Shown here one piece after another: positions 4,924 to 18,156 of a stretch of DNA of 58,415 bases; position 1 is the first letter of the stretch; every line of letters begins with the position of its first letter. The translations under genes and the position numbers were made by a program. Location: positions 20,245-78,659 of the forward strand of contig PXYT01000019.1 of assembly GCA_003023725.1 (NCBI GenBank), written 5' to 3'. Source of the stretch: Sulfobacillus benefaciens (GTDB taxonomy: Bacteria; Bacillota; Sulfobacillia; Sulfobacillales; Sulfobacillaceae). The notes beneath the pieces were generated by a model. It was not told the origin of the DNA and made no database searches. It saw nothing but the letters and a program-made list of their open reading frames with translations.

Positions 4924-5204
4924 ATGAACCTGCTTAGCTGGACGCAAAAATTTGGAACGGATGCCGCGTGTCGCGAGTATTGGTTTGATCAGTGATAGCC
5001 GCACGGGTTTGTCGATTTGTCCACCAACAGCATCAGCGTCGACAAGCCGCCATCAATAGCCCCCAGACGGCCTACTGGGACTCAAATCTCGCATTACCTG
5101 AACGGTGACCCTATCCCCAGCAACTCCTGGATGAAAGAATTCCGCCCAATGGTCATGATTCACATCACATCGGGCGTTCTGAAAGAAAGTCCTTGGTGGT
5201 CATG
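4924..5204 (+). pseudogene. IS1595-type transposase remnant (N-terminal part)
   Basis: The start MNLLSWTQKFGTDAACREYW followed by a PHGF segment matches the beginning of IS1595-family transposases, where this region precedes a Cys-rich zinc ribbon. Two consecutive stop codons (TGA TAG) interrupt it right after the FDQ triplet. The continuation, readable only with frame changes, loses the cysteines and the catalytic DDN/D domain. No terminal inverted repeats were identified. It abuts the decayed TadE copy on the other strand. Confidence 0.45.
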
Positions 5205-5226
5205 AGAATGGCACCGTTCATCCCGA

Positions 5227-5754
5227 ACAGCCTCCCGGTTGTGTGAGATACATGATCCCTGTGGGTCGGAGGGGACGGCTGCGTCCATTGCGGCGTTTTC
5301 ACCATCATTTTGATAGATTTGGGCAATTTGCACCGTCGAAGAGAGTAATCCGGGAATGGGAATCAGCGGATGATAGGCATAGACCACTGTCATCACCACG
5401 TCATGTTGCTGCGGATTGGTGTCACTGCCTATGATTGCGGCATAGGTGATGACGGGCTTGGCTTGGGATCCCGTGCCGGTTGTCAACCAGGGGTGATTGC
5501 TGTTTAGTTGATCGTCCACGGCGCCATAGGCAGTCGGTGTCGTGCCAGCGGCCAGCTCTTTCGCCGAGTCTCCGGGACAACCCAGTGTATTCCCGATGGC
5601 GACTGTGCACACCTACTCGTACAGCCTGTTGCACCGCATCCACGGCATTGATATAAAAGCCGTAAATGATGGCAAAGAGCCGCAACACGACCGGCAAAAC
5701 TAATGCGGTTTCGATGAGAGCTTGGCCGGTGTTATGACTCCGATGCCGGGTCAT
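5227..5754 (-). pseudogene. Decayed TadE-like pseudopilin (paralogue of the gene at 21588)
   Basis: The minus strand carries a TadE start (HNTGQALIETALVLPVVLR, hydrophobic helix, INAVDAVQQAVRVG). After a frameshift near 5610 comes GNTLGCPGDSAKEL, followed by YGAVDDQLN, YAAIIGSDTNPQQ and YHPLIPIPGLL. Each piece aligns closely with the intact protein at 21588-22208. A second shift gives QMMVKTPQWTQPSPPT with an internal deletion relative to the intact copy. The ATG overlaps the stop of the TadG-like remnant (ATGA), the same junction as in the intact pair, so the duplication covered both genes. Confidence 0.75.
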
Positions 5755-6907: not shown

Positions 6908-7783
6908 TTAAGGTAATTGGTGTCGACTTGTAACGTTGAATTTTACGCAAATATTGCGAACATGCGTTTTGACGGTGTTGTATTCAATGTGACAATGCGA
7001 GGCAATTTCTGTCAGCGCTAAGCCCTCCTTTAAAAGACGATAAATTTCCTGTTCCCTTTTGGTTAATGCGCTTACCACAGATGTCACGCTATCGCGGTCA
7101 ATCTCGTCGGAAGTGTTAGGTGATTCGGAAGAGACCGTAAAATCCATGTAGTTGGTGCCAATAGCTTTTTCTTTTTTGGTTCCTGTCAAAAGACGTTCAG
7201 ACCAAAGATGATAAATCGGTAAACAGGCTACGAGTGCGACAATAATCATCCAAAATGATAATTCGGCAGGAGAAAAGGCAACATGTCTAACGGTTTTCTG
7301 ATACACCCACATATTCAGCAACAATAGTTCAGCAGCACCTAATCCAACTACTCCCCCCAAAACATCCCAATATAGAAGCCCTTCAAACGATAAAGCAGGC
7401 AACAAAGCAGGAGCGTTCGTGCTGAGGTTTGACGAAAATTGGATCAGCAGTAATCCCCACGTTAACGTATCGATAATCAACGTGCTGGCTAAAAGGATTT
7501 GGAAATATCGCCATTTTTTAATATATAAACCCAGCAGAAATAATGTGACCGTATACAGGCCGCCAAAGACTAATATCGGCCACGCCATAGAGGAATGAGA
7601 CTCGGGAAATTGCTCCGTGACCCATATGGCAAACAGCAAAATTGCTCCGCGGTAAAAGCCGACCGTAAAAAATCTTTGACGTTGGCGCATTAATGTTTGA
7701 ATAACAGACCATCTCCTCTTAGTTCTTGGTCTATGACGTACCGATCGCCATCCAAATTCAAGAATGCAAGGGGTTATCCCCAT
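6908..7783 (-). CDS. Membrane-anchored LuxR-type transcription regulator
   Basis: 291 residues. The N-terminal ~200 residues contain about six hydrophobic helices (for example FFTVGFYRGAILLFAIWV, VFGGLYTVTLFLLGLY, FWMIIVALVACLPIYHL). After a short acidic linker a classic LuxR-type HTH follows at about 240-291 (LTKREQEIYRLLKEGLALTE, then NTVKTHVRNICVKFNV). There is no receiver domain, so activity is probably set by the membrane domain, as in other membrane-bound one-component regulators. The start at 7783 lacks a good ribosome site and an internal start is possible. It diverges from the biosynthetic cluster starting at 8042, making it the likely cluster regulator (inference). Confidence 0.8.
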   Translation of the reverse strand: MGITPCILEFGWRSVRHRPRTKRRWSVIQTLMRQRQRFFTVGFYRGAILLFAIWVTEQFPESHSSMAWPILVFGGLYTVTLFLLGLYIKKWRYFQILLASTLIIDTLTWGLLLIQFSSNLSTNAPALLPALSFEGLLYWDVLGGVVGLGAAELLLLNMWVYQKTVRHVAFSPAELSFWMIIVALVACLPIYHLWSERLLTGTKKEKAIGTNYMDFTVSSESPNTSDEIDRDSVTSVVSALTKREQEIYRLLKEGLALTEIASHCHIEYNTVKTHVRNICVKFNVTSRHQLP

Positions 7784-8041: not shown

Positions 8042-8368
8042 ATGATGCCAAGTCAAGCGCAATTGGCAGAATCTCTGCTAGAAACATTAAGGCGGATGAA
8101 GCCCGAACAACAGAGTTTATCCGGCTGTACGCTTCTTCGTGATTTACAACTCGATTCTCTAGATTCGCTCGAATTGTTCTATTTGATGGAACGCTATATT
8201 CCGGAAGTGCGGGACAATGCGTTCAATGTTACTATTCCCCGTGATTGCAAGGTTCTCGAAACCGGTGTTGAAGCGACCAATTTACAAGATGTGTTCAACA
8301 AGGGGACGGTCAATGACCTTGTTAAGGTCATTGCCACGTTCACGATGCAACAACACCATGCTTCATGA
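8042..8368 (+). CDS. Acyl carrier protein, atypical
   Basis: 108 residues, longer than a typical 75-80-residue AcpP. The phosphopantetheine site is clear: LQLDSLDSLELF around residues 36-46, with Ser39 as the attachment residue. The surrounding helix II pattern (LELFYLMERYIPE) is that of carrier proteins. After an insertion-like middle part, the C-terminal helix (TVNDLVKVIATF) matches ACP helix IV. It overlaps the ketoacyl synthase gene by 11 bases and belongs to the cluster that ends with its own holo-ACP synthase at 15714. It presumably carries an acyl chain for that synthase rather than serving housekeeping fatty acid synthesis (inference). Confidence 0.85.
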   Translation: MMPSQAQLAESLLETLRRMKPEQQSLSGCTLLRDLQLDSLDSLELFYLMERYIPEVRDNAFNVTIPRDCKVLETGVEATNLQDVFNKGTVNDLVKVIATFTMQQHHAS

Positions 8369-9587
8369 AAGAAGCCCAAGAGCGGTTGTTATTACTGGCA
8401 TGGGAGCCATAACGGGCAGTGGATTGGGTGTCAAACCGTTGTGGCAGGACGTGATTAACGCTCGTTCGCGAATTACACGCGTGACGTTGGAAAAGCGTAC
8501 CTACTTGGGAGTACCCGCCTCATTGGACGACGAGTGTGTAGAGTGGTTTCGCAAAATTGGGCACTATGACCGTTATGCCGTCATGGGTTTTATTGCAGCC
8601 CAACTAGCTCTTCGTGATGCTGAATGGACGCAATGTTCTGAATCCACCGCATCTGCCGGCATCGTTATGGGTACTGGATTCGGCGCAATGGGGACTATTG
8701 AAAATACGCACCGAACTTTGTTCGAAGCCAAGCGCGATCGCGTTCGCCCTATGACCTTACCGTTAGCCATGTCAAATAGTGTTGGAGCGCTTATGGCCCA
8801 GTCTTTTCAATTTCACGGGCCGAATTTGATAATTTCTACGGCATGTTCATCATCTGCTCATGCAGTCGGCATTGGATCTCGTCTTATCGAACAGGGAATT
8901 TGCGATGCGGTGGTTGTGGGTGGCACTGACGCTCCGCTATTACAAGGAGTGTTCGCTAGTTGGGATGCACTGGGAGTTTTAGCCCCCGACCAAGAGCCAC
9001 CAACAGAAGGACTCCGACCCTTTGACCGCGACCGGCAAGGGGTGGTTCTGGGAGAAGGCGCCGGGGTAGTGGTATTGGAGGCATGGTCACATGCTCGCAA
9101 GCGCAATCGTTCTCCTTATGCCCTCATATGCGGATATGGTGCTTCGGCCGACGGCAAACACCTAACGCGTCCGGATTCTGCGGGCATGGCTTTAGCCATG
9201 ACGCGATGTTTGGCCAATGCACAGTGTCCACCTGACTTCGTCGATTATATTCAAGCTCATGGTACCGGCACTGTGGCCAATGACACTGTGGAATGCGAAG
9301 CGCTTGAGAGTGTTTTTGATGGGAGAACACCGCCCGTATCTTCATCAAAGCCCATCACGGGTCATACCATGGGTGCAGCGGGAATATTAGGGCTGATCAT
9401 AGCGATAATGAGCCTGGAGAAAAAGACTATCCCTCCCACAGCCAATCTTCGTTCGGTCGACCCTCAATGTCAAGGTGTGACACATGTTGTCAACCCGGTA
9501 GCAACTCCACTAAATAAAATTCTCGTGAATGCTTTTGGATTCGGCGGGAACAATGCCTCGTTGTTAATTGAATCGATACACAATTAA
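8358..9587 (+). CDS. Beta-ketoacyl-ACP synthase (FabF-like)
   Basis: 409 residues, usual FabF length. The Cys-His-His triad of decarboxylating condensing enzymes is present: TACSSSAHAVG (Cys163), YIQAHGTGTVANDT (His301) and KPITGHTMGAAG (His336), with the C-terminal NAFGFGGNNASLL loop. The start is the ATG at 8358 (MLHERSPRAVVITGMG), overlapping the ACP stop; the open frame extends further upstream only inside the ACP gene. It would condense malonyl-ACP with an acyl group. No ketoreductase, dehydratase or malonyltransferase lies nearby, so these steps must come from primary metabolism or be skipped. Chemistry is confident; pathway role is inferred. Confidence 0.9.
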   Translation: MLHERSPRAVVITGMGAITGSGLGVKPLWQDVINARSRITRVTLEKRTYLGVPASLDDECVEWFRKIGHYDRYAVMGFIAAQLALRDAEWTQCSESTASAGIVMGTGFGAMGTIENTHRTLFEAKRDRVRPMTLPLAMSNSVGALMAQSFQFHGPNLIISTACSSSAHAVGIGSRLIEQGICDAVVVGGTDAPLLQGVFASWDALGVLAPDQEPPTEGLRPFDRDRQGVVLGEGAGVVVLEAWSHARKRNRSPYALICGYGASADGKHLTRPDSAGMALAMTRCLANAQCPPDFVDYIQAHGTGTVANDTVECEALESVFDGRTPPVSSSKPITGHTMGAAGILGLIIAIMSLEKKTIPPTANLRSVDPQCQGVTHVVNPVATPLNKILVNAFGFGGNNASLLIESIHN

Positions 9588-9610
9588 CCGCAGCGAAAGG
9601 AGGTGAAGTC

Positions 9611-9670
9611 ATGGTGATAGAAGTGATTTCTGTAACCCACCGCAGCGAATTAGCGGATAAGTGTTGCTAA
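9611..9670 (+). CDS. 19-residue peptide ending in Cys-Cys, candidate precursor peptide
   Basis: The frame MVIEVISVTHRSELADKCC, 19 residues, starts at an ATG seven bases after AAAGGAGGTGA, one of the strongest ribosome sites in the window, and stops at TAA (9668-9670). It sits between the ketoacyl synthase and an E1-type adenylating enzyme, the place taken by mccA in microcin C operons. A perfect 10-bp hairpin follows it. The hydrophobic/acidic N-terminal half and the C-terminal pair of cysteines suit a leader and a modified end, but this is inference. Alternatives: a regulatory leader peptide or translational-coupling ORF. Too short for ordinary gene finders. Confidence 0.55.
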   Translation: MVIEVISVTHRSELADKCC

Positions 9671-9686
9671 GACTGTAAGTCGACGT

Positions 9687-9722
9687 GGAAGAGTGGCGGA
9701 TTTGTCCATCGTCCACTCTTCC
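9687..9722 (+). promoter_or_regulatory. Hairpin between peptide gene and E1 gene (attenuator-like)
   Basis: Arms GGAAGAGTGG (9687-9696) and CCACTCTTCC (9713-9722) pair perfectly over 10 bp around a 16-base loop. There is no long T-run, only CGTTCTTAATCTC after it, so it is better read as a partial terminator or RNA-stabilising hairpin. Such an element would raise peptide mRNA over enzyme mRNA. Confidence 0.55.
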
Positions 9723-9756
9723 CGTTCTTAATCTCAGAACAAAGGAGAGCAAACGG

Positions 9757-10851
9757 ATGGAACGGGTGAGTCTCCAGATGGGTACCAAGGTTTATCTTGA
9801 TGAATATAATGATCTTCACACCATTTCGTCTGCCATGGGCACGGTTAAACATCTCCGATGTTCTCCGGAGGTCGTAACATTGCTGCAACATGTTGACACA
9901 CCTCAAACGGCAAGGCATCTTTACACGATCTTACACTCTTATTACCCATTGCTATGTTTCGATGAGTTTATGACTCTTTTATCCCGACTGGCGGAAGAAG
10001 GTATTATCCGGTTAAATGACTTGCCTCCCGAACTGGCTCACAGTAGCTTCGCCCTCTTTCTCGAGGAACTGGCGCCTGCACAAGCAGAACACATTGTGCA
10101 CACACTACAAACAAGTACCGCCATCGTGATTGGTGTGGGAACTATTGGCGCAGCGGTTGCCACTCAACTTGCCCAATGCCGAGTTGGTCAACTGATCCTT
10201 ATTGACCCGGATCATGTTGAGGAAGGCAATTTAGAACGCCAATTTACCTATACTCGCAATGATATAGGCGTTCCCAAGGCTCTTGCTCTACAAAATTTTT
10301 TGCAGCGCCGAACCCCAACCCAAATTGTGCCTGTCCTAAAGAAGATTGAATCCAGCGCAGACCTCAAATCGATCCTACAACGTCTCGAAACTCTAGCGGT
10401 GATTGTCAATTGTGCAGATAGTCCGTCCGTTGATTATGTCGCGGGATGTATTGCTGAAGCCGTACATTGCACCACTCCTATTCCTTTTATTGCCGGTGGT
10501 GGTTATTCTGGACATTTGGGTTCTGTCGGCCCCACCTTTATCCCGGGTCAATCTATTTGCTGGCTGTGTTATCAACAACAAACACAGAACGCTCGACAAA
10601 TCCAGGACATGAGTCAGTGGCAATTGATTGCGTCTCGTCCGTTTACATCGACGTCCACGCATCCAGCTTTCGGGCCACTGGGAATTTTTATCTCCAGTCT
10701 TATGGCCAGCGAAGCGATATGGATTCTGACTGGATTAAAAGAACCCTTATTTTTGAATCGTCATGGAGAATGGGATTTATCTCAGGGCGCCATGATCTGG
10801 CGTGAGGTGAAAGCCAGTACTACCTGTCCACAGTGTCAGTCATTAATTTAA
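9757..10851 (+). CDS. E1-like (ThiF/MccB-type) adenylating enzyme
   Basis: 364 residues. Residues 1-115 form a small winged-helix-like domain of the kind that binds peptides in RiPP enzymes (inferred from position and pattern). The E1/ThiF Rossmann fold begins with IVIGVGTIGAAVA (122-134, GxGxxG at 126-131). It continues with LILIDPDHVEEGNLERQ (146-162) and VIVNCADSP (216-223), all standard ATP-binding and adenylation elements. Two CxxC pairs, CWLC (268-271) and CPQC (357-360), form the structural zinc site. There is no long Ubl-accepting catalytic domain, as in MccB. The ATG at 9757 has AAAGGAGA eight bases before it. It probably adenylates the C-terminal carboxylate of a peptide, plausibly the 19-mer just upstream. 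Stand-alone ThiF/MoeB sulfurylation is the alternative. Confidence 0.85.
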   Translation: MERVSLQMGTKVYLDEYNDLHTISSAMGTVKHLRCSPEVVTLLQHVDTPQTARHLYTILHSYYPLLCFDEFMTLLSRLAEEGIIRLNDLPPELAHSSFALFLEELAPAQAEHIVHTLQTSTAIVIGVGTIGAAVATQLAQCRVGQLILIDPDHVEEGNLERQFTYTRNDIGVPKALALQNFLQRRTPTQIVPVLKKIESSADLKSILQRLETLAVIVNCADSPSVDYVAGCIAEAVHCTTPIPFIAGGGYSGHLGSVGPTFIPGQSICWLCYQQQTQNARQIQDMSQWQLIASRPFTSTSTHPAFGPLGIFISSLMASEAIWILTGLKEPLFLNRHGEWDLSQGAMIWREVKASTTCPQCQSLI

Positions 10852-11160
10852 CGACAGACAGTATTAAGGGTATGTGTTCTCGGCAATTCTGTTCTTGGGT
10901 CGGTGAATTGCATGTGTTTCCCAGCCAATCGAACGGAGAAAAAGATGGTGGTTTCGGAACCGTGATGTTTTTAATCGTTTTACAGGATCGCAGAATTCCG
11001 GTCTGTGTCCCGATCGCAATGGATCTCGTTCGTCTGCCGACAATGTAGTTCCTTGATCTGCGAGTCCAGGTTCGCATATTTGGTGAACCTATCTGCATAC
11101 AAACAAAACGATAAATTGCTTGCACTCAAGATTGTGACCATCTCGTATGGAGGAGAGTAC
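10852..11160. other. Internal cluster gap with a weak small frame
   Basis: 309 bases between the E1 and GNAT genes, the only large gap in the cluster. A 71-codon frame from a GTG at 10833 to a TAG at 11048 overlaps the E1 end (internal MCSRQFCSWVGELHVF, late RIPVCVPIAMDLV). It has no convincing ribosome site and I do not call it. An AGGTTC...GAACCT inverted repeat at about 11069-11091 may be a regulatory site. Confidence 0.35.
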
Positions 11161-11727
11161 ATGATGATAGGGCGATTAGTGAGACTTTCTAGTTGGGAAA
11201 TCCCAGATGTTGATACGTATGTGAAATGGATTCAAAATCCCGAGATTGCGCGATTGACCCATATGGTAGGACGCCCGATATCACGACGAGAAATAGATGA
11301 AGAGTTCTCCCCATATTTTCGTGGACAATCAACCGTTCAACACTGGGCTATAATCGATCGCAAAACGAATGAACTCATTGGCAAAATACATTGGGAGGAA
11401 TGTTTGAAGGGACCCGATGTCTATGAATTGGGTATCGTCATCGGGGATTCCGAGCGCTGGCGCATTGGGTATGGAGCAGAAGCGTGCTTGTTGGCCGGAG
11501 AACTTCTATTCCGGGAACTCAAGGCGCACAAAGTGATGTATTTATGTGCAGAATACAATACCCCGATGATTGAATTGGGAATTCGAGGCGGCTTCAAGGA
11601 AGAAGGGCGTATCCGCGATCGTTTTTACGTAAATGGTCGCTACTGGGATGGAATTTGGTTGGGTTTGCTGAAAACTGAATATGACAGTTTTACCGAATAT
11701 CTCACTGCGCAATTAGGGAGGACCTAA
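11161..11727 (+). CDS. GNAT acyltransferase (RimJ/RimL-like)
   Basis: 188 residues from the ATG at 11161, chosen because GGAGGAGA lies just upstream; the frame stays open to 11005 but without a ribosome site. The order of elements is that of RimJ/RimL-type N-acetyltransferases: MIGRLVRLSSWEIPDVDTYV, HWAIIDRKTNELIGKI, YELGIVIGDSERWRIGYGAE (the acyl-CoA pyrophosphate loop, degenerate Q/RxxGxG/A), then YNTPMIELGIRGGFKEEG and a C-terminal RDRFYVNGRYWD. In microcin C clusters a GNAT domain (MccE) acylates the toxic moiety. Here it could transfer an acetyl or a longer acyl group to peptide or product (inference). The MMPL gene follows two bases later. Confidence 0.85.
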   Translation: MMIGRLVRLSSWEIPDVDTYVKWIQNPEIARLTHMVGRPISRREIDEEFSPYFRGQSTVQHWAIIDRKTNELIGKIHWEECLKGPDVYELGIVIGDSERWRIGYGAEACLLAGELLFRELKAHKVMYLCAEYNTPMIELGIRGGFKEEGRIRDRFYVNGRYWDGIWLGLLKTEYDSFTEYLTAQLGRT

Positions 11728-11729
11728 GG

Positions 11730-13883
11730 GTGGAATCATCAAATCTAACTGCGAGATGGCGTAGTGTGATGGCCATTCTTACGGTCATCGCATGGATTGT
11801 GGTTACGGGGTTCGGAGTGTTGGGATTCCAGACACTGAGTCAGAGCATTAACACCACTGGTCTCAATACCCCGGGCAGTGAGTCCGCCGCCTTCCAACAA
11901 ACCCTTCAGCGTGATTATCCCAAGGCGTCCGCGTTAGGCTTTGATGTCTTAGTCCATCACCATAACTCCCCCGTGACGCGATCAGCGATCAATGGCTTGA
12001 CAGAGGCCATCAGACATCAATTTTCTCAACTTATGAATATGGGAGTGCAAAATCACGGGAATTGGACGGTGAGTGCATGGTCGGAAAAGACGCATCATTT
12101 CGTGACGGCCCTGAAGACCTACAGCAGCATTTCGACATCGCTCCATAAAATCGTAGCGCATTTCGCTTCCGTAACCCATAGCCAGGTGTTCATTACTGGA
12201 ACTGTGCCCATGCAGTCCGCGTTTTCTCAGTTGGCCCTGCAAGACTTAATCCGCGCTGCCCGTTTTACGCTTCCACTGACACTCATTTTACTGCTTCTGG
12301 TCTTTCGATCACTATATAAAAGTTTTGCCGTGATTTTCAGTGCCACTACCGGCGCTCTCGTGGGTCTAGCTGGTTTGACACTATGGCCTGGAACCGTACC
12401 CATCACAAGTTTCACAGAACAAGCCGGTCTCATGATTGGACTCAGTGTCGGAATCGATTACGGTATGATGTGGCTGGCCTCACTCGCACGTCAAAGTCAA
12501 TCTGAACCCGTCGCGAACCGGTTTCGCCAAGCGAGAAAACGTGCGGTGCGCATGATCTTGCCAGCCGCTGCAATTGTCATCTTGGCTTTACTGACATTGA
12601 TGGAGTTTCATCAACCTTTGATCACGTCGATTGCATTGGGAATCGTTTTCTCGGTGGCGGGAAGTGCGCTAGCGAGTCTGAGTATATTACCGGCCATTTT
12701 ATGGTTGGGACGATCCCGATTGAGGACCGCAACAGCGGATCGCTCCACAAAAGTATTAACCACTGTACAAACGTTCCTATTGCGACGCCAGCGGACCGTG
12801 GGGGTAGCGCTTGTAGCGGTTCTCATAGGCATCGGCAGTTTGGTACCTGCAATTACTTTGTGGGAACCCGGCATCTCGACCCTACCGAAGAATTTGCCAG
12901 CCGTTCAAGGATTTCGTTCACTCCAGAGGCACTTTCCTTCTTATGCCGGCGCTCCCATCCAAATAGCTCTTTTTCCGCCAACCGGTGGCTGGGGTGGACA
13001 GATCTTGGCGTTCAAGCATACGGTCCAATGGATTACGAACATGCCGGCTGTGCAGCGTATTCAAGATCCGTTACCGCTCAATGAGTTATTGGGGAAATCC
13101 CGTACCGAACAGAATGCATGGATCCGTCATATTTTGGGATCGTCCACTCACCCGGTTATTTTAAATCTTTGGTCCATCGATGCAAACAGTAGTCCCCACA
13201 ATCTCAATCTCGTGCACCAATTGCGATCCCGGATTCGGGCCACACCTACTCCGTTTAGAATGCAAATTGGTGGAGGTGCGGCACAAGCGCACGATGCCGT
13301 GCGGCGTATATCAACATCGTTTTTAGGCGTGTTGGCCGCTGTGGCCATGATTACCATGATCGGACTGTTATGGCGTTTCCGTTCCGCGGTGATTGCTATT
13401 TCCTCCATTGTATTGAATGGGCTATCTACACTCGTTAGTCTGGGAGTCCTCGTAGCACTCTTTCAATTTCAGTGGGGACGTTGGATAGGCCTCCACACGG
13501 CTGGCGCCTTGCAATGGACAACACCCGTGTTGATATTTGCCATTCTCTTTGCTGTCGGAACGGATTATGAAATATTCTACGTGGAAGCTATTCAACACCA
13601 CCAACAACAAGAGAAACCGATGAAAACGGCGATTTTGCTAGCAACCAGAGAAACAGGAACACTGTTAAGCGGCGCCGCGATAATCATGGCCTCTGTGTTT
13701 ATGGCTTTTGGTCTCTCGGGTCTGGAATTTATGCAAGAACTAGGAATCGGACTGGCCATTGCCGTGCTCATTGATGCGACCATTATGCGCATGATGCTCG
13801 TGCCTAGTCTTCTTATGTTGTTTCAAGACCGAACCTGGTGGCCAGGGCGGCGCTCACACACTGACAGAGAGGTGATCAAATGA
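11730..13883 (+). CDS. MMPL/RND-family exporter
   Basis: 717 residues. Layout is typical of MMPL proteins: one N-terminal helix (MAILTVIAWIVVTGFGVLGF), a large external loop to about 180, and a block of five helices from 190. The block includes the signature GLSVGIDYGMMW (about 238-249). A central helix and second external loop follow, then a second block with the duplicate FAVGTDYEIFYVEA (about 608-621). MMPL exporters move lipids, siderophores and lipidated metabolites using the proton gradient, which suits an acylated product. GTG start, with GGGAGGA upstream spanning the GNAT stop; overlaps the next gene by four bases. Confidence 0.9.
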   Translation: MESSNLTARWRSVMAILTVIAWIVVTGFGVLGFQTLSQSINTTGLNTPGSESAAFQQTLQRDYPKASALGFDVLVHHHNSPVTRSAINGLTEAIRHQFSQLMNMGVQNHGNWTVSAWSEKTHHFVTALKTYSSISTSLHKIVAHFASVTHSQVFITGTVPMQSAFSQLALQDLIRAARFTLPLTLILLLLVFRSLYKSFAVIFSATTGALVGLAGLTLWPGTVPITSFTEQAGLMIGLSVGIDYGMMWLASLARQSQSEPVANRFRQARKRAVRMILPAAAIVILALLTLMEFHQPLITSIALGIVFSVAGSALASLSILPAILWLGRSRLRTATADRSTKVLTTVQTFLLRRQRTVGVALVAVLIGIGSLVPAITLWEPGISTLPKNLPAVQGFRSLQRHFPSYAGAPIQIALFPPTGGWGGQILAFKHTVQWITNMPAVQRIQDPLPLNELLGKSRTEQNAWIRHILGSSTHPVILNLWSIDANSSPHNLNLVHQLRSRIRATPTPFRMQIGGGAAQAHDAVRRISTSFLGVLAAVAMITMIGLLWRFRSAVIAISSIVLNGLSTLVSLGVLVALFQFQWGRWIGLHTAGALQWTTPVLIFAILFAVGTDYEIFYVEAIQHHQQQEKPMKTAILLATRETGTLLSGAAIIMASVFMAFGLSGLEFMQELGIGLAIAVLIDATIMRMMLVPSLLMLFQDRTWWPGRRSHTDREVIK

Positions 13884-14347
13884 ATATCCATCCTCTTACA
13901 TTCGTGATTTTAGGAATCGCATGTTTTCGCCTAACCCATTTATTGGTAGCAGAAGAGATTACCACCTTTCTCCGATCACCATTGGTGGATGCCGTTAATG
14001 AACCCGATGCTGCGGGACGTTGGATAAAGTTGCAGTATCCTAAACCCTCTCGTTTGCGTGGATTTCTGGGCGCGCTCATTAGCTGTCCATGGTGTACCGG
14101 GATTTGGGTGAGTACGGCATTTGTCGTGGGATGGGGCTTATTTCCCCACGTCGTTTTTCCGATTGCGGTCGTTTTTGCTGTGGCAGGGCTAGGGATATTC
14201 CTAGAAATGGCAACGCAATATTGGAGCCGAAATAGTTTTAGCCCCACGCCAAAACAAGTAGCCCGAATTAACACCATAAACAACCTACTAACTCAAACGA
14301 CGCCTGGTCAGCGGACCGACGAGAGGGACCAAGGTAGGATCTTATGA
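13880..14347 (+). CDS. DUF1360 membrane protein
   Basis: 155 residues. The N-terminal helix with FRLTHLLVAEEI, the middle segment SRLRGFLGALISCPWCTGIW (the CxWC motif that marks DUF1360) and a following hydrophobic helix pair identify the family. DUF1360 proteins are small membrane proteins known mainly from spore-forming Firmicutes, with no established biochemical role. Start and stop overlap its neighbours by four bases on each side (ATGA), so it is translationally coupled with both exporters. The CPWC pair could be redox-active or metal-binding (inference). Confidence 0.8.
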   Translation: MNIHPLTFVILGIACFRLTHLLVAEEITTFLRSPLVDAVNEPDAAGRWIKLQYPKPSRLRGFLGALISCPWCTGIWVSTAFVVGWGLFPHVVFPIAVVFAVAGLGIFLEMATQYWSRNSFSPTPKQVARINTINNLLTQTTPGQRTDERDQGRIL

Positions 14348-15699
14348 ACGATCGAAATACGGCCCTTATTGTAACGGGAGCCACGATTAGTGTAGCCCTC
14401 TCCGCGTTGGATGTGTCTATTACTACGATTGCCACCCCAACGATTATCAAAACTCTGCATGGTTCCCTCTCTCAAGTTTCGTGGGTATTTCTGGCTTATC
14501 TCGGGGCCGCGTTATTAGCATTGCCATGGAGTGGCATCTTCGCAGATCGCATACCCAGTCATCGCGTGCTAAGCATCGGATTGCTCACTTTCGGAGTAGG
14601 ATCCATTGGCTGTGCAGTTGCAGCATCCATGCCGATTTTCTTGATGTTTCGAGTAATTCAAGGAGTCGGCGGCGGCTGCCTAATGGCCTTGCCTATTATT
14701 ATCGTAGGTAAATTTTTTAAGCCATCAGAGCGTGCACGGTGGCAGGGAGTTCTGGCAGCGGGATACGGTATTGCAACATTAGTAGGACCTCCTTTGGGAG
14801 GATTTGTTACGGCAACTGCAGGATGGCCTTTCATTTTTGTGCTGAACATCCCTTTTGTTTTCATGGCCCTGTTAATGCTTAACCGTATTCATCTTCCTTT
14901 TCGGCCGACCACCTCAGAAGGACAATGGGTCAATATTCTCTTGTTTAATGCGGTGATTGGTTTGGTTCTCGTAGCCATTTACGAGTGGACTATCCGCTAT
15001 GGTCTAGCAGAAATAATCTTGGCTCTAGGATGCGCCCTGATATTTATCCGGCAGGCGCGAGACGGTCATAGTATGTTATGGCCTACTGGGGTCACTCAAA
15101 ATGTCGTTATTGTGAGTTTGGGTGTGATGGTGTTAATGGCAGCCGGTATAGAATCCGGTGCGATCTATGCCCCAATAATCTTTCAGCACGTGTTTCATGT
15201 AACACCGGTGGTAACGGGCCTCTTGTTAATCCCCATGTCATTAATTTCGATACTTGCCAGCTTGTGGAGTGGCAAGATCATGAGCAAAACCGGTATTTAC
15301 CGGCGGCTCTTGCTTTGGGCCGAAGTGAACATGGGCTTAGGATTTGGACTGGTCATGGTAGGATTGCAATTTCATACATTGACCATTGTGCTCTTGAGCA
15401 CAGTGGTCTTCGGGCTGGGACTAGGCTTACAACAACCCATTATTGCCGTAGTCGTCCAAGCGGTAACGCCCAAGGAATCTTTAGGGGCGATCTCATCCCT
15501 GTTACCGCTACTATGGAATGTCGGTGCATGGGTTGGTTTGTTGTTAACGACTATCGAATTCCGGGTATTTCCGGAGTCTCTAAGTTGGACCGTCGTATAT
15601 GGAGTAGCCCTATTAATGATCGTGATCGCCGCATGGATTTCGCTTCGATTACCACCACGGCGTTTACAAGAGTTTCAAGGTCTCGGAGTTTCCGAGTAG
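14344..15699 (+). CDS. MFS drug-type exporter (DHA2-like)
   Basis: 451 residues, many hydrophobic helices. SQVSWVFLAYLGAALLALPW in the first segments and the motif-A region GIFADRIPSHRV are typical, as is motif C in GYGIATLVGPPLGGFVTATA (antiporter motif). This places it with EmrB/QacA-type exporters; the length suggests 12-14 helices. Microcin C operons also carry an MFS exporter (MccC), so this gene may give export and self-immunity. Overlaps the DUF1360 gene by four bases; acpS follows after 14 bases with a strong ribosome site. Confidence 0.88.
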   Translation: MNDRNTALIVTGATISVALSALDVSITTIATPTIIKTLHGSLSQVSWVFLAYLGAALLALPWSGIFADRIPSHRVLSIGLLTFGVGSIGCAVAASMPIFLMFRVIQGVGGGCLMALPIIIVGKFFKPSERARWQGVLAAGYGIATLVGPPLGGFVTATAGWPFIFVLNIPFVFMALLMLNRIHLPFRPTTSEGQWVNILLFNAVIGLVLVAIYEWTIRYGLAEIILALGCALIFIRQARDGHSMLWPTGVTQNVVIVSLGVMVLMAAGIESGAIYAPIIFQHVFHVTPVVTGLLLIPMSLISILASLWSGKIMSKTGIYRRLLLWAEVNMGLGFGLVMVGLQFHTLTIVLLSTVVFGLGLGLQQPIIAVVVQAVTPKESLGAISSLLPLLWNVGAWVGLLLTTIEFRVFPESLSWTVVYGVALLMIVIAAWISLRLPPRRLQEFQGLGVSE

Positions 15700-15713
15700 G
15701 AAGGAGCATAATT

Positions 15714-16058
15714 ATGATCGGCATTGATGTCGTCGATATTGCCCGATTTCAACGTATATACCAAGACAAAGCCCTATTATTCGCCTTGTTTACCGATGAC
15801 GAAATTATTTACCTTCGTTCGCGTCAATTCCCTGAAGCCAGCGCTGCAGGAATGTTTGCCGCCAAAGAAGCTTATTGTAAGGCCATTCAACGCCCATTAA
15901 CGTTATCCGCAATCAAGAACATTGAAATTGAGCATGCCTCAGATGGACGCCCCATACTGCAAGCGGATCAGACTTCAACGTGCTTTTCAACCAAGCACCC
16001 ACATCTGTCCATCTCTCATACACAAGGGGTTGCCCTAGCCGTTGTGGCACTTCAATAG
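15714..16058 (+). CDS. acpS: Holo-ACP synthase (AcpS-type phosphopantetheinyl transferase)
   Basis: 114 residues, usual AcpS size. MIGIDVVDIARFQRIY at the N-terminus carries the Mg-binding Asp, FAAKEAYCKAI the Glu/Lys motif, and HLSISHTQGVALAVVAL the C-terminal motif. It transfers the phosphopantetheine arm of CoA to a carrier-protein serine, here most likely Ser39 of the cluster ACP. The ATG at 15714 has GGAAGGAG nine bases upstream; longer readings run back into the MFS gene. As the last cluster gene it may be a second, dedicated copy (whether the genome has another cannot be seen). Confidence 0.92.
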   Translation: MIGIDVVDIARFQRIYQDKALLFALFTDDEIIYLRSRQFPEASAAGMFAAKEAYCKAIQRPLTLSAIKNIEIEHASDGRPILQADQTSTCFSTKHPHLSISHTQGVALAVVALQ

Positions 16059-17228: not shown

Positions 17229-17264
17229 TTTGTCCGCCAAATGTTGCGAAAAAATCATGGTAAT

Positions 17265-17274
17265 GTTGCGCAAC
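17265..17274. promoter_or_regulatory. Perfect palindrome GTTGCGCAAC, LacI-type operator candidate
   Basis: A 10-base perfect palindrome with central CG lies about 70 bases before the sugar-binding-protein start, with a second TGTTGCG half-site about 25 bases further upstream (ATGTTGCGAA). This is the usual form of LacI-family operators before sugar-transport genes. Confidence 0.4.
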
Positions 17275-17341
17275 GTTTGGTATCATAATGGTCCAATCAT
17301 CTCAGTGAGAATTATACACACACTAGAAAGGATGGAGCACG

Positions 17342-18156
17342 ATGCGAAAGTCTTCGACGGCACTAGTGGCCGCAGCAGCCACTGCGATGCTAGCACTTCT
17401 AGCGAGTGGATGCGGTGCCAGCACTTCACCGACGGCAGCAGCCCCCCACGTGTCGCTTTTATACCCCAACTTATTGGCATTCCCTACTTCACCGCAATGG
17501 AGCATGGAGGGCAGGCAGCTGCAAAGCGGTTTCATGTAGATTTTAACTACGATGGCCCGACAACAGCGAGTGCTGCCTCACAATTGAGCATTTATGACAG
17601 TTTAATTGCGCAACATTATAACGCTATTTCCATTTCGGTCTTAGATCCGAATACGATTGATGGTGCCATTGCCCGCGCTCGCAAGGAGGGTATTGTCGCA
17701 TTAACCACGGATAGCGACTCGCCAAATAGCGTGCGTCAAGCGTTTGTATCGGAAGCGTCCAACAAAGCGTTAGGATACACACTAGCGGACCAACTGGCGA
17801 AGGAATTGCATGGACAGGGACAAGTAGGCATTGTTTCCGGCAGTCCAACCGCAACCAATCTCAACGCATGGATTGGCTACATTAAGCAACGATTAACGTC
17901 GACCTACCCCCACATGTCGATTGTCGATACTCTCTATGCAGGGGGATCGTCTTCTACCTCGTTGCAAGATGCTCAAAATATTATGGCGGCCTATCCGCAC
18001 GTGCGGGCACTTATCGCTGTTGCCTCGAGCAATATCCCGGGAGTGTGTCAAGCCGTCGAAGATGCGCACAAAGTTGGGAGTGTCACCGTGACCGGTTATG
18101 GATCACCGATGACGGTAAAACCCTATATGCAGGCCGGGGTAATGAAAGATTTTTAA
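17342..18156 (+). pseudogene. Sugar ABC-transporter substrate-binding lipoprotein, frameshifted and truncated
   Basis: An ATG at 17342 after AAGGATGGAG encodes a lipoprotein signal (LVAAAATAMLALLASGCGAS). Around 17440-17470 the frame must shift to continue as VAFIPQLIGIPYFTAMEHGG, then IYDSLIAQHYNAISISVLDP and GQVGIVSGSPTATNLNAWI. This is the fold of RhaS/LsrB-type periplasmic sugar-binding proteins. The protein stops after MKDF at 18156, short of the family's C-terminal lobe (about 60-80 residues missing). No permease or ATPase genes follow. A dead remnant of a sugar uptake operon. Confidence 0.75.

Follow-up and report, generated by a model that had tools for sequence, protein, structure and literature searches.

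What would a bacterium make with a block of genes that sets a tiny, cysteine-ended peptide and an E1-like (ThiF-type) adenylating enzyme among the genes of a fatty-acid-type acyl module? The question is raised by a 58,415-nucleotide stretch of Sulfobacillus benefaciens DNA (hereafter the window; GenBank assembly GCA_003023725.1, contig PXYT01000019.1, positions 20,245 to 78,659), in which a sequence-only reading had proposed that a modified peptide is combined with an acyl chain. Our analysis suggests that the block is a self-contained pathway of the kind that yields ribosomally synthesized and post-translationally modified peptides (RiPPs), equipped with an acyl module. The E1 enzyme would activate the end of the peptide, an acyl carrier protein (ACP), a beta-ketoacyl-ACP synthase (KS) and a GNAT-family transferase would supply an acyl group, and the product would then be exported. 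We judge the chances of this reading to be about even. The idea of a peptide-plus-acyl hybrid is strengthened by the co-occurrence of the genes in a second genus, by an E1 that is not a housekeeping enzyme, and by extra copies of the ACP, KS and AcpS genes; the joining of the acyl chain to the peptide is itself plausible.

Conservation of the gene block as one unit

The whole gene set occurs collinearly in G011, a second genome from the same family as that of the window and from a different genus, so the possibility that the homologues never co-occur elsewhere can be set aside. Ten genes in G011, including a divergent LuxR gene and the gene for the tiny peptide, have the same order and orientation as in the window. 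Identities between the two sets of products are 50% for LuxR, 34-36% for ACP, 53% for KS, 63% for the peptide, 47% for E1, 73% for GNAT, 48% for the MMPL exporter, 68% for the DUF1360 protein, 48% for the MFS exporter and 48% for AcpS, so that GNAT ranks first in conservation. When open reading frames (ORFs) of at least 130 amino acids from the 58-kb window were compared with 34 kb of G011, matches were confined to the interval from LuxR to AcpS, except for a second G011 E1. Because no similarity extends beyond this interval, the block occupies different places in the two genomes.

No further genome of the genus or family among those examined contains the block. Among 154 genomes of the class, a search with GNAT returned no other strong relative and no second cluster context, and a search with the MMPL protein returned paralogues (~30% identity) whose examined neighbourhoods held no other cluster genes. 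The DUF1360 gene, on whose family the literature is very thin, with one paper found, is present as a single copy in the genome. Taken together, these comparisons indicate that the gene set is real and functions as a unit.

A coding mini-peptide followed by a stem-loop

The smallest gene of the block (9611-9670, forward strand) encodes a 19-residue peptide with a Cys-Cys end, MVIEVISVTHRSELADKCC, behind a very strong ribosome-binding site (AAAGGAGGTGA). Its homologue at the equivalent place in G011, MVLEMVSIINRIELADKCC, is identical at 12 of the 19 residues. The last seven residues, ELADKCC, are invariant between the two peptides, and three of the codons for this segment differ synonymously. 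Over the whole tiny ORF, the nucleotide differences fall 5, 2 and 10 times on codon positions 1, 2 and 3, respectively. Behind it, the spacers of the window and G011 align no better than shuffled sequences. A DNA pattern for ELADKCC plus stop matched only the window and G011 loci in the 154 class genomes and a phylum sample of 398 genomes, and the reversed pattern, used as a control, gave zero matches in the same sets. These substitution patterns indicate that the tiny ORF is a real coding gene.

The 93-nucleotide spacer between the peptide and E1 genes folds at -31.9 kcal/mol (z -3.0), and the predicted stem-loop (GGAAGAGTGG...CCACTCTTCC) lies at 9686-9723 on the forward strand. Stem-loops that are equally strong and unrelated in sequence occur at the same place in G011, in a Lactiplantibacillus plantarum plasmid and in G002, a genome of the window's own genus, bringing the total to four loci. 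In the microcin C system, a terminator hairpin lies between mccA and mccB, and monocistronic mccA mRNA is made in excess (PMC6495379). The layout of peptide, hairpin and E1 resembles mccA-mccB and thus fits a precursor that is made in excess.

The same anatomy could be read as a cysteine-sensing leader peptide, with ribosomes stalling at the two Cys codons and thereby tuning the expression of E1 and the downstream genes. Such a device would be expected to have what is seen here, a pair of Cys codons immediately ahead of the stop codon and a stem-loop a short distance behind it. However, an attenuator needs to conserve only its sensing codons, whereas ELADK is invariant in the face of synonymous changes. 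In addition, related E1 enzymes are accompanied by peptides with a single terminal Cys, and no U-tract follows the G011 stem-loop. We therefore regard a leader peptide as very unlikely.

The E1 enzyme and its relatives

The E1/ThiF-type enzyme (364 amino acids; 9757-10851, forward strand; Pfam ThiF, 3.7e-32) starts at an ATG at 9757 that is preceded by AAAGGAGAG. Its motifs for the ATP site and the zinc cysteines are intact (GVGTIG, NLERQ, K174, NCADSP and CxxC...CxxC). Among solved proteins the closest is MccB, with a profile match of 1e-36, and hhalign paired the two at 99.7% over the adenylation domain (aligned residues 86-361). A Foldseek search with a modest model of the enzyme likewise returned ThiF and MccB. 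The extra N-terminal domain described by the sequence-only reading is present and spans ~110 residues with three predicted helices at low AlphaFold confidence. The AlphaFold model, built on a shallow alignment, reached a predicted template modeling score (pTM) of 0.61 with an unreliable N-terminal domain, and modeling this domain in isolation was no better.

Could this E1 be a housekeeping ThiF or MoeB protein? We rejected this possibility because separate ThiF-family copies lie on contigs C132 and C24 of the same genome. A scan of genome contigs for E1 relatives returned only distant ThiF/MoeB-like proteins, and none were found in viral contigs. A YcaO (thiazole/oxazole) RiPP pathway was also rejected: there is no YcaO among the nine conserved proteins, the E1 motifs are intact, and the match to a SagC-type profile is only 3e-6, far below its cut-off.

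Relatives of the E1 occur beside other cysteine-ended peptides. An enzyme on L. plantarum plasmids (NZ_CP028335, NZ_CP025416) is 28-30% identical to the window E1 over 99% of its length, is preceded by one or two 19-residue peptides (MEKVSEVKVLAHEEKNGSC), and is followed by an MFS gene. This locus shares with the window the peptide length, the Cys end, the strong Shine-Dalgarno sequence, the hairpin, a similar E1 N-terminal part and an adjoining MFS gene. In contrast, it has no acyl module, its MFS protein is not detectably homologous to that of the window, and its peptides are unrelated to MVIEVISVTHRSELADKCC apart from length and the terminal Cys. An E1 relative in G002 is likewise preceded by a Cys-ended mini-peptide, MKIQVKKVEDVQTTCHVDQNC. 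By these comparisons, the Cys-ended mini-peptide evidently recurs beside this type of E1, and the acyl module is peculiar to the two complete blocks.

A locus such as that of L. plantarum, with E1, peptides and an MFS gene and no acyl genes, invites the thought that two modules merely travel together, the E1 and peptide making one compound while ACP, KS, AcpS, MMPL and DUF1360 make and flip a membrane or secreted lipid. MMPL proteins do commonly move lipids. However, the genes of the two supposed modules alternate within a single operon (ACP, KS, peptide, E1, GNAT, MMPL and so on), where gene ends overlap, and the block is conserved as a whole. In the class genomes searched, neither GNAT nor MMPL turned up beside cluster genes in any other context. 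We give this arrangement a small chance.

Several other E1 loci are recorded here in their own right. A locus in G002 (L060, G002:C4:220-3837) combines another mini-peptide with a terminal Cys and an E1 with two further genes, one peptidase-like and one PqqD-like/membrane-protease-like, and is a different E1-RiPP cluster in the genus of the window. On the reverse strand of two further loci (L063, G128:C24; L064, G121:C1:519000-533000), short ORFs with 11-13 consecutive Cys residues, such as MDELNIKEIVENALKSGNYNNGGGCCCCCCCCCCCCCGENDHRD, sit just upstream of ThiF/E1-like genes with N-terminal extensions and look like poly-Cys RiPP precursors. Plasmids of Moraxella (L047, 7514-9975) and Acinetobacter (L054, 4256-6729) encode a conserved Cys-rich peptide of 63-66 amino acids (CCTR.CTR ... 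AWD.YLE.NAGVLQY). Behind it lie two distinct members of the ThiF family, along with an ABC transporter, and this is probably a two-E1 RiPP cluster. The second E1 of G011 (L049, G011:C1:594410-596170) has an N-terminal extension and lies ~10 kb from the main cluster. Transposase-like sequence apparently interrupts this gene or is fused to it, and ABC transporter genes are nearby.

Comparison with E1-dependent peptide pathways

Microcin C production involves a tiny peptide, an E1-like enzyme, a GNAT domain and an MFS exporter, and the sequence-only reading had pointed to this system. We made the comparison with the mcc cluster on a plasmid of E. coli ATCC 25922. The resemblance holds for a tiny peptide directly before E1, a stem-loop behind the peptide, MFS and GNAT genes in the cluster, and an E1 adenylation domain that is nearest to MccB. 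Beyond the adenylation domain, a relationship to microcin C finds no support. The ATCC 25922 precursor is a heptapeptide ending in Asn (MRTGNAN), whereas the window and G011 peptides have 19 residues and end in KCC. No significant BLASTP match was obtained between the window MFS and MccC or between the window GNAT and MccE of that cluster. Furthermore, MccD and MccF are absent from the block, which has ACP, KS, AcpS, MMPL and DUF1360 in addition. Precursors of the microcin C type need a C-terminal Asn (PMC6495379). Since the Asn end and counterparts of MccC and MccE are lacking, the block is not a member of the microcin C family and works partly like microcin C biosynthesis.

For the same reasons we consider it highly improbable that the block makes a microcin C-like Trojan horse, in which E1 would put a nucleotide on the peptide end, the MFS protein would export the conjugate and GNAT would give MccE-like self-immunity. 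The MccB-like adenylation domain, the presence of MFS and GNAT, and the tiny peptide with its strong Shine-Dalgarno sequence and a stem-loop before E1 would suit such a product. However, a peptide that ends in Cys lacks the Asn through which the N-P bond is made, the exporter and transferase do not match MccC and MccE, and ACP, KS, AcpS and MMPL would be left unexplained.

Other parallels are found among RiPPs made by ThiF enzymes with a RiPP recognition element (RRE), namely GRC thiolactone, IND indolylamide, enterofaecin and pantocin. RRE-ThiF enzymes activate precursor carboxylates for attack by various nucleophiles, and GrcB forms a Glu-Cys thiolactone near the C-terminal end of its precursor (PMC12250964, PMC12150305). 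As in these systems, a short precursor adjoins an E1 that consists of two parts, one of them an N-terminal extension, the E1 domain is intact and would be expected to carry out ATP-dependent carboxylate activation, and Cys stands at the end of the precursor as in GrcA. Unlike them, the window block encodes neither a radical SAM enzyme nor a peptidase, nor an RRE as a protein of its own, and it contains an ACP-KS-AcpS module of the fatty-acid/polyketide type and MMPL, which are unreported with this E1 class in the literature searched.

A dedicated acyl module

The ACP gene (8042-8368, forward strand; 108 amino acids) gives a weak acyl_carrier match, and the nearest solved chain is an ACP (2e-4). 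Its C-terminal half is atypical; the serine site reads LDSLDSLEL, in which LDSLD is invariant between the window and G011. The FabF-like KS (8358-9587, forward strand, from an ATG at 8358) retains the Cys-His-His triad in the motifs STACSSS, HGTGT and KPITGHTMG, together with the GFGG loop. The AcpS-type phosphopantetheinyl transferase (15714-16058, forward strand; PF01648, 3.7e-14) is a second copy in the genome, the housekeeping AcpS being on contig C69.

The alternative that ACP and KS serve primary fatty-acid synthesis was rejected. A complete fab operon with PlsX, FabH, FabD, FabG, ACP and FabF, the neighbours being named from their sequences, lies on contig C68, and its housekeeping ACP is the sole Pfam PP-binding match in the genome. 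Against a fabF equivalog cut-off of 494 bits, the cluster KSs score 338 (window) and 319 (G011); the genome's own FabF, by contrast, reaches 616. The block copies of ACP, KS and AcpS therefore are dedicated extra copies beside complete primary machinery, and the idea that they are components of ordinary fatty-acid synthesis does not hold.

The best plasmid hits of the cluster KS are KSs of Sinorhizobium and Rhizobium plasmids (~38% identity), which are probably NodE. We do not claim kinship with the Nod proteins, because the 38% for the rhizobial KSs compares with 39% for the genome's own FabF. In nodulation, NodF is the ACP and NodE the KS. NodE and NodF produce acyl groups of a special kind, and NodA is the enzyme that moves acyl groups off acyl carrier protein (PMC5080398, which prints NodE and NodF in swapped roles). 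The block resembles this system in having a dedicated ACP and a FabF-like KS with an acyltransferase that could supply a special acyl chain. It differs in that the acceptor would be a peptide, in the general nature of the FabF similarity, and in having a GNAT not shown to be NodA-like.

GNATs are known to lipidate RiPPs (PMC13060382). In the goadvionins, lipolanthines and selidamides, as in the window, a GNAT and machinery for the acyl chain accompany the precursor peptide. However, the window has no lanthionine synthetase, uses E1 as the peptide-modifying enzyme and has a GNAT of the RimL/SpeG type, and a single ACP and KS stand where those pathways have full polyketide or fatty acid synthases.

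An intact KS beside a dedicated ACP also allows a different chemistry. E1 could load the activated peptide C terminus onto the phosphopantetheine thiol of ACP, after which KS would take the peptidyl-ACP as a starter and add a ketide, forming a C-C bond at the peptide end, while GNAT would acetylate the product or give immunity. In accord with this scheme, MccB supplied with a non-Asn C terminus joins the peptide to added thiols as thioesters (PMC13255007). In the conserved block, an MccB-type E1 is accompanied by a dedicated ACP, AcpS and intact KS, and the ACP and KS genes lie directly upstream of the peptide and E1 genes. Yet the loading of a peptide onto a carrier protein by an E1 has, to our knowledge, not been described, which weighs against the scheme, and FabF-type KSs normally accept acyl-ACP. 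Moreover, the thiols that MccB captured in its active site were mainly small ones (PMC13255007). We consider this chemistry unlikely; if it were true, ribosomal and polyketide assembly would meet in a C-C bond at the end of a peptide.

Proposed pathway

We return to the reading in which an E1-activated peptide receives an acyl group. The gene content, the co-conservation, the coding peptide, the intact catalytic motifs and the dedicated gene copies are observed; from here on, we infer the product and the order of the chemistry. Judging by gene anatomy, the 19-residue peptide, which has a strong ribosome-binding site to itself, would be overproduced, and the stem-loop would limit read-through into E1. 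As expected of its enzyme family, E1 would then bind the peptide and use ATP to adenylate a carboxylate within the conserved ELADKCC end, the one on the last Cys being the most likely target. A thiol would capture the adenylate, either from one of the two terminal Cys residues, giving a thiolactone-like end, or from an external compound. AcpS would arm ACP, and KS together with housekeeping reductases would build a special acyl chain, much as NodF and NodE do. By analogy with goadvionins and selidamides, GNAT may transfer this acyl group from ACP to an amine of the peptide. MMPL, the MFS protein or both would export the lipopeptide, and the LuxR protein would control expression.

Several points weigh against this proposal. 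That a single molecule holds both acyl and peptide parts is something we infer. The GNAT resembles small-molecule and RimL/SpeG-type acetyltransferases and may only acetylate or confer immunity. The N-terminal domain of E1, a candidate RRE with a low-confidence model, gives only weak winged-helix-type and PaaA-like_N Pfam hits. The block encodes no protease and no reductases, and only two complete clusters were found.

With these points in mind, we would class the block with the E1(ThiF)-RiPP-like pathways, as an unusual case that carries a fatty-acid-type module, and its product is probably an undescribed hybrid lipopeptide. No described pathway with this gene set was found in the literature searched, which covered few subscription papers. 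Research on peptide natural products is moving actively into ThiF-type enzymes, for which only a few reactions are known (microcin C, pantocin, GRC, IND and enterofaecin). Here, an enzyme of this type is linked, along with a 19-residue peptide that has its own gene, to a dedicated carrier-protein/ketosynthase module, and either way of connecting the parts, an acylated E1-RiPP or a peptide passed to a carrier protein, would be a new reaction.

Remaining genes and architecture of the locus

One end of the conserved block is formed by the divergent gene for a LuxR-type (GerE) regulator (6908-7783, reverse strand; Pfam GerE, 1.2e-13), which the sequence-only reading overlooked. Its product has a hydrophobic N-terminal part, probably in the membrane, and an orthologue (~50% identity) occupies the same position in G011. 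The genes downstream of E1 on the forward strand encode the GNAT acyl/acetyltransferase (11161-11727; Acetyltransf_3, 2.4e-16), the MMPL/RND-type exporter (11730-13883; MMPL, 2e-40), the DUF1360 protein, which has a CPWC motif and is probably membrane-bound (13880-14347; PF07098, 8.4e-30), and the EmrB/SdrM-like MFS exporter of the DHA2-type drug exporter family (14344-15699; MFS_1, 4e-47), followed by AcpS.

All genes named by the sequence-only reading were confirmed, including the ACP with its serine site, the intact KS, E1, GNAT, two exporters and AcpS. Its count needs a small correction: eight genes and the mini-peptide gene lie on the forward strand, rather than nine genes and a short ORF. 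Of the four-base overlaps that it placed at several junctions, exact ones are present at two, MMPL/DUF1360 (13880-13883) and DUF1360/MFS (14344-14347). The ACP and KS genes overlap by 11 bases, and a gap of 309 bases (10852-11160) with no convincing ORF inside separates E1 from GNAT. This gap is absent from G011, where the E1 and GNAT genes abut or overlap. A promoter and terminator scan showed no excess over shuffled sequences.

Two other features of the window lie outside the block. At 17230-18156, together with 17342-17539, a lipoprotein signal and a sugar-binding-type remainder occur in different frames and look like a frameshifted substrate-binding gene. On the reverse strand at 5160-5754, a TadE-like pilus assembly protein is seemingly split over two frames and is probably a pseudogene or a sequencing error.

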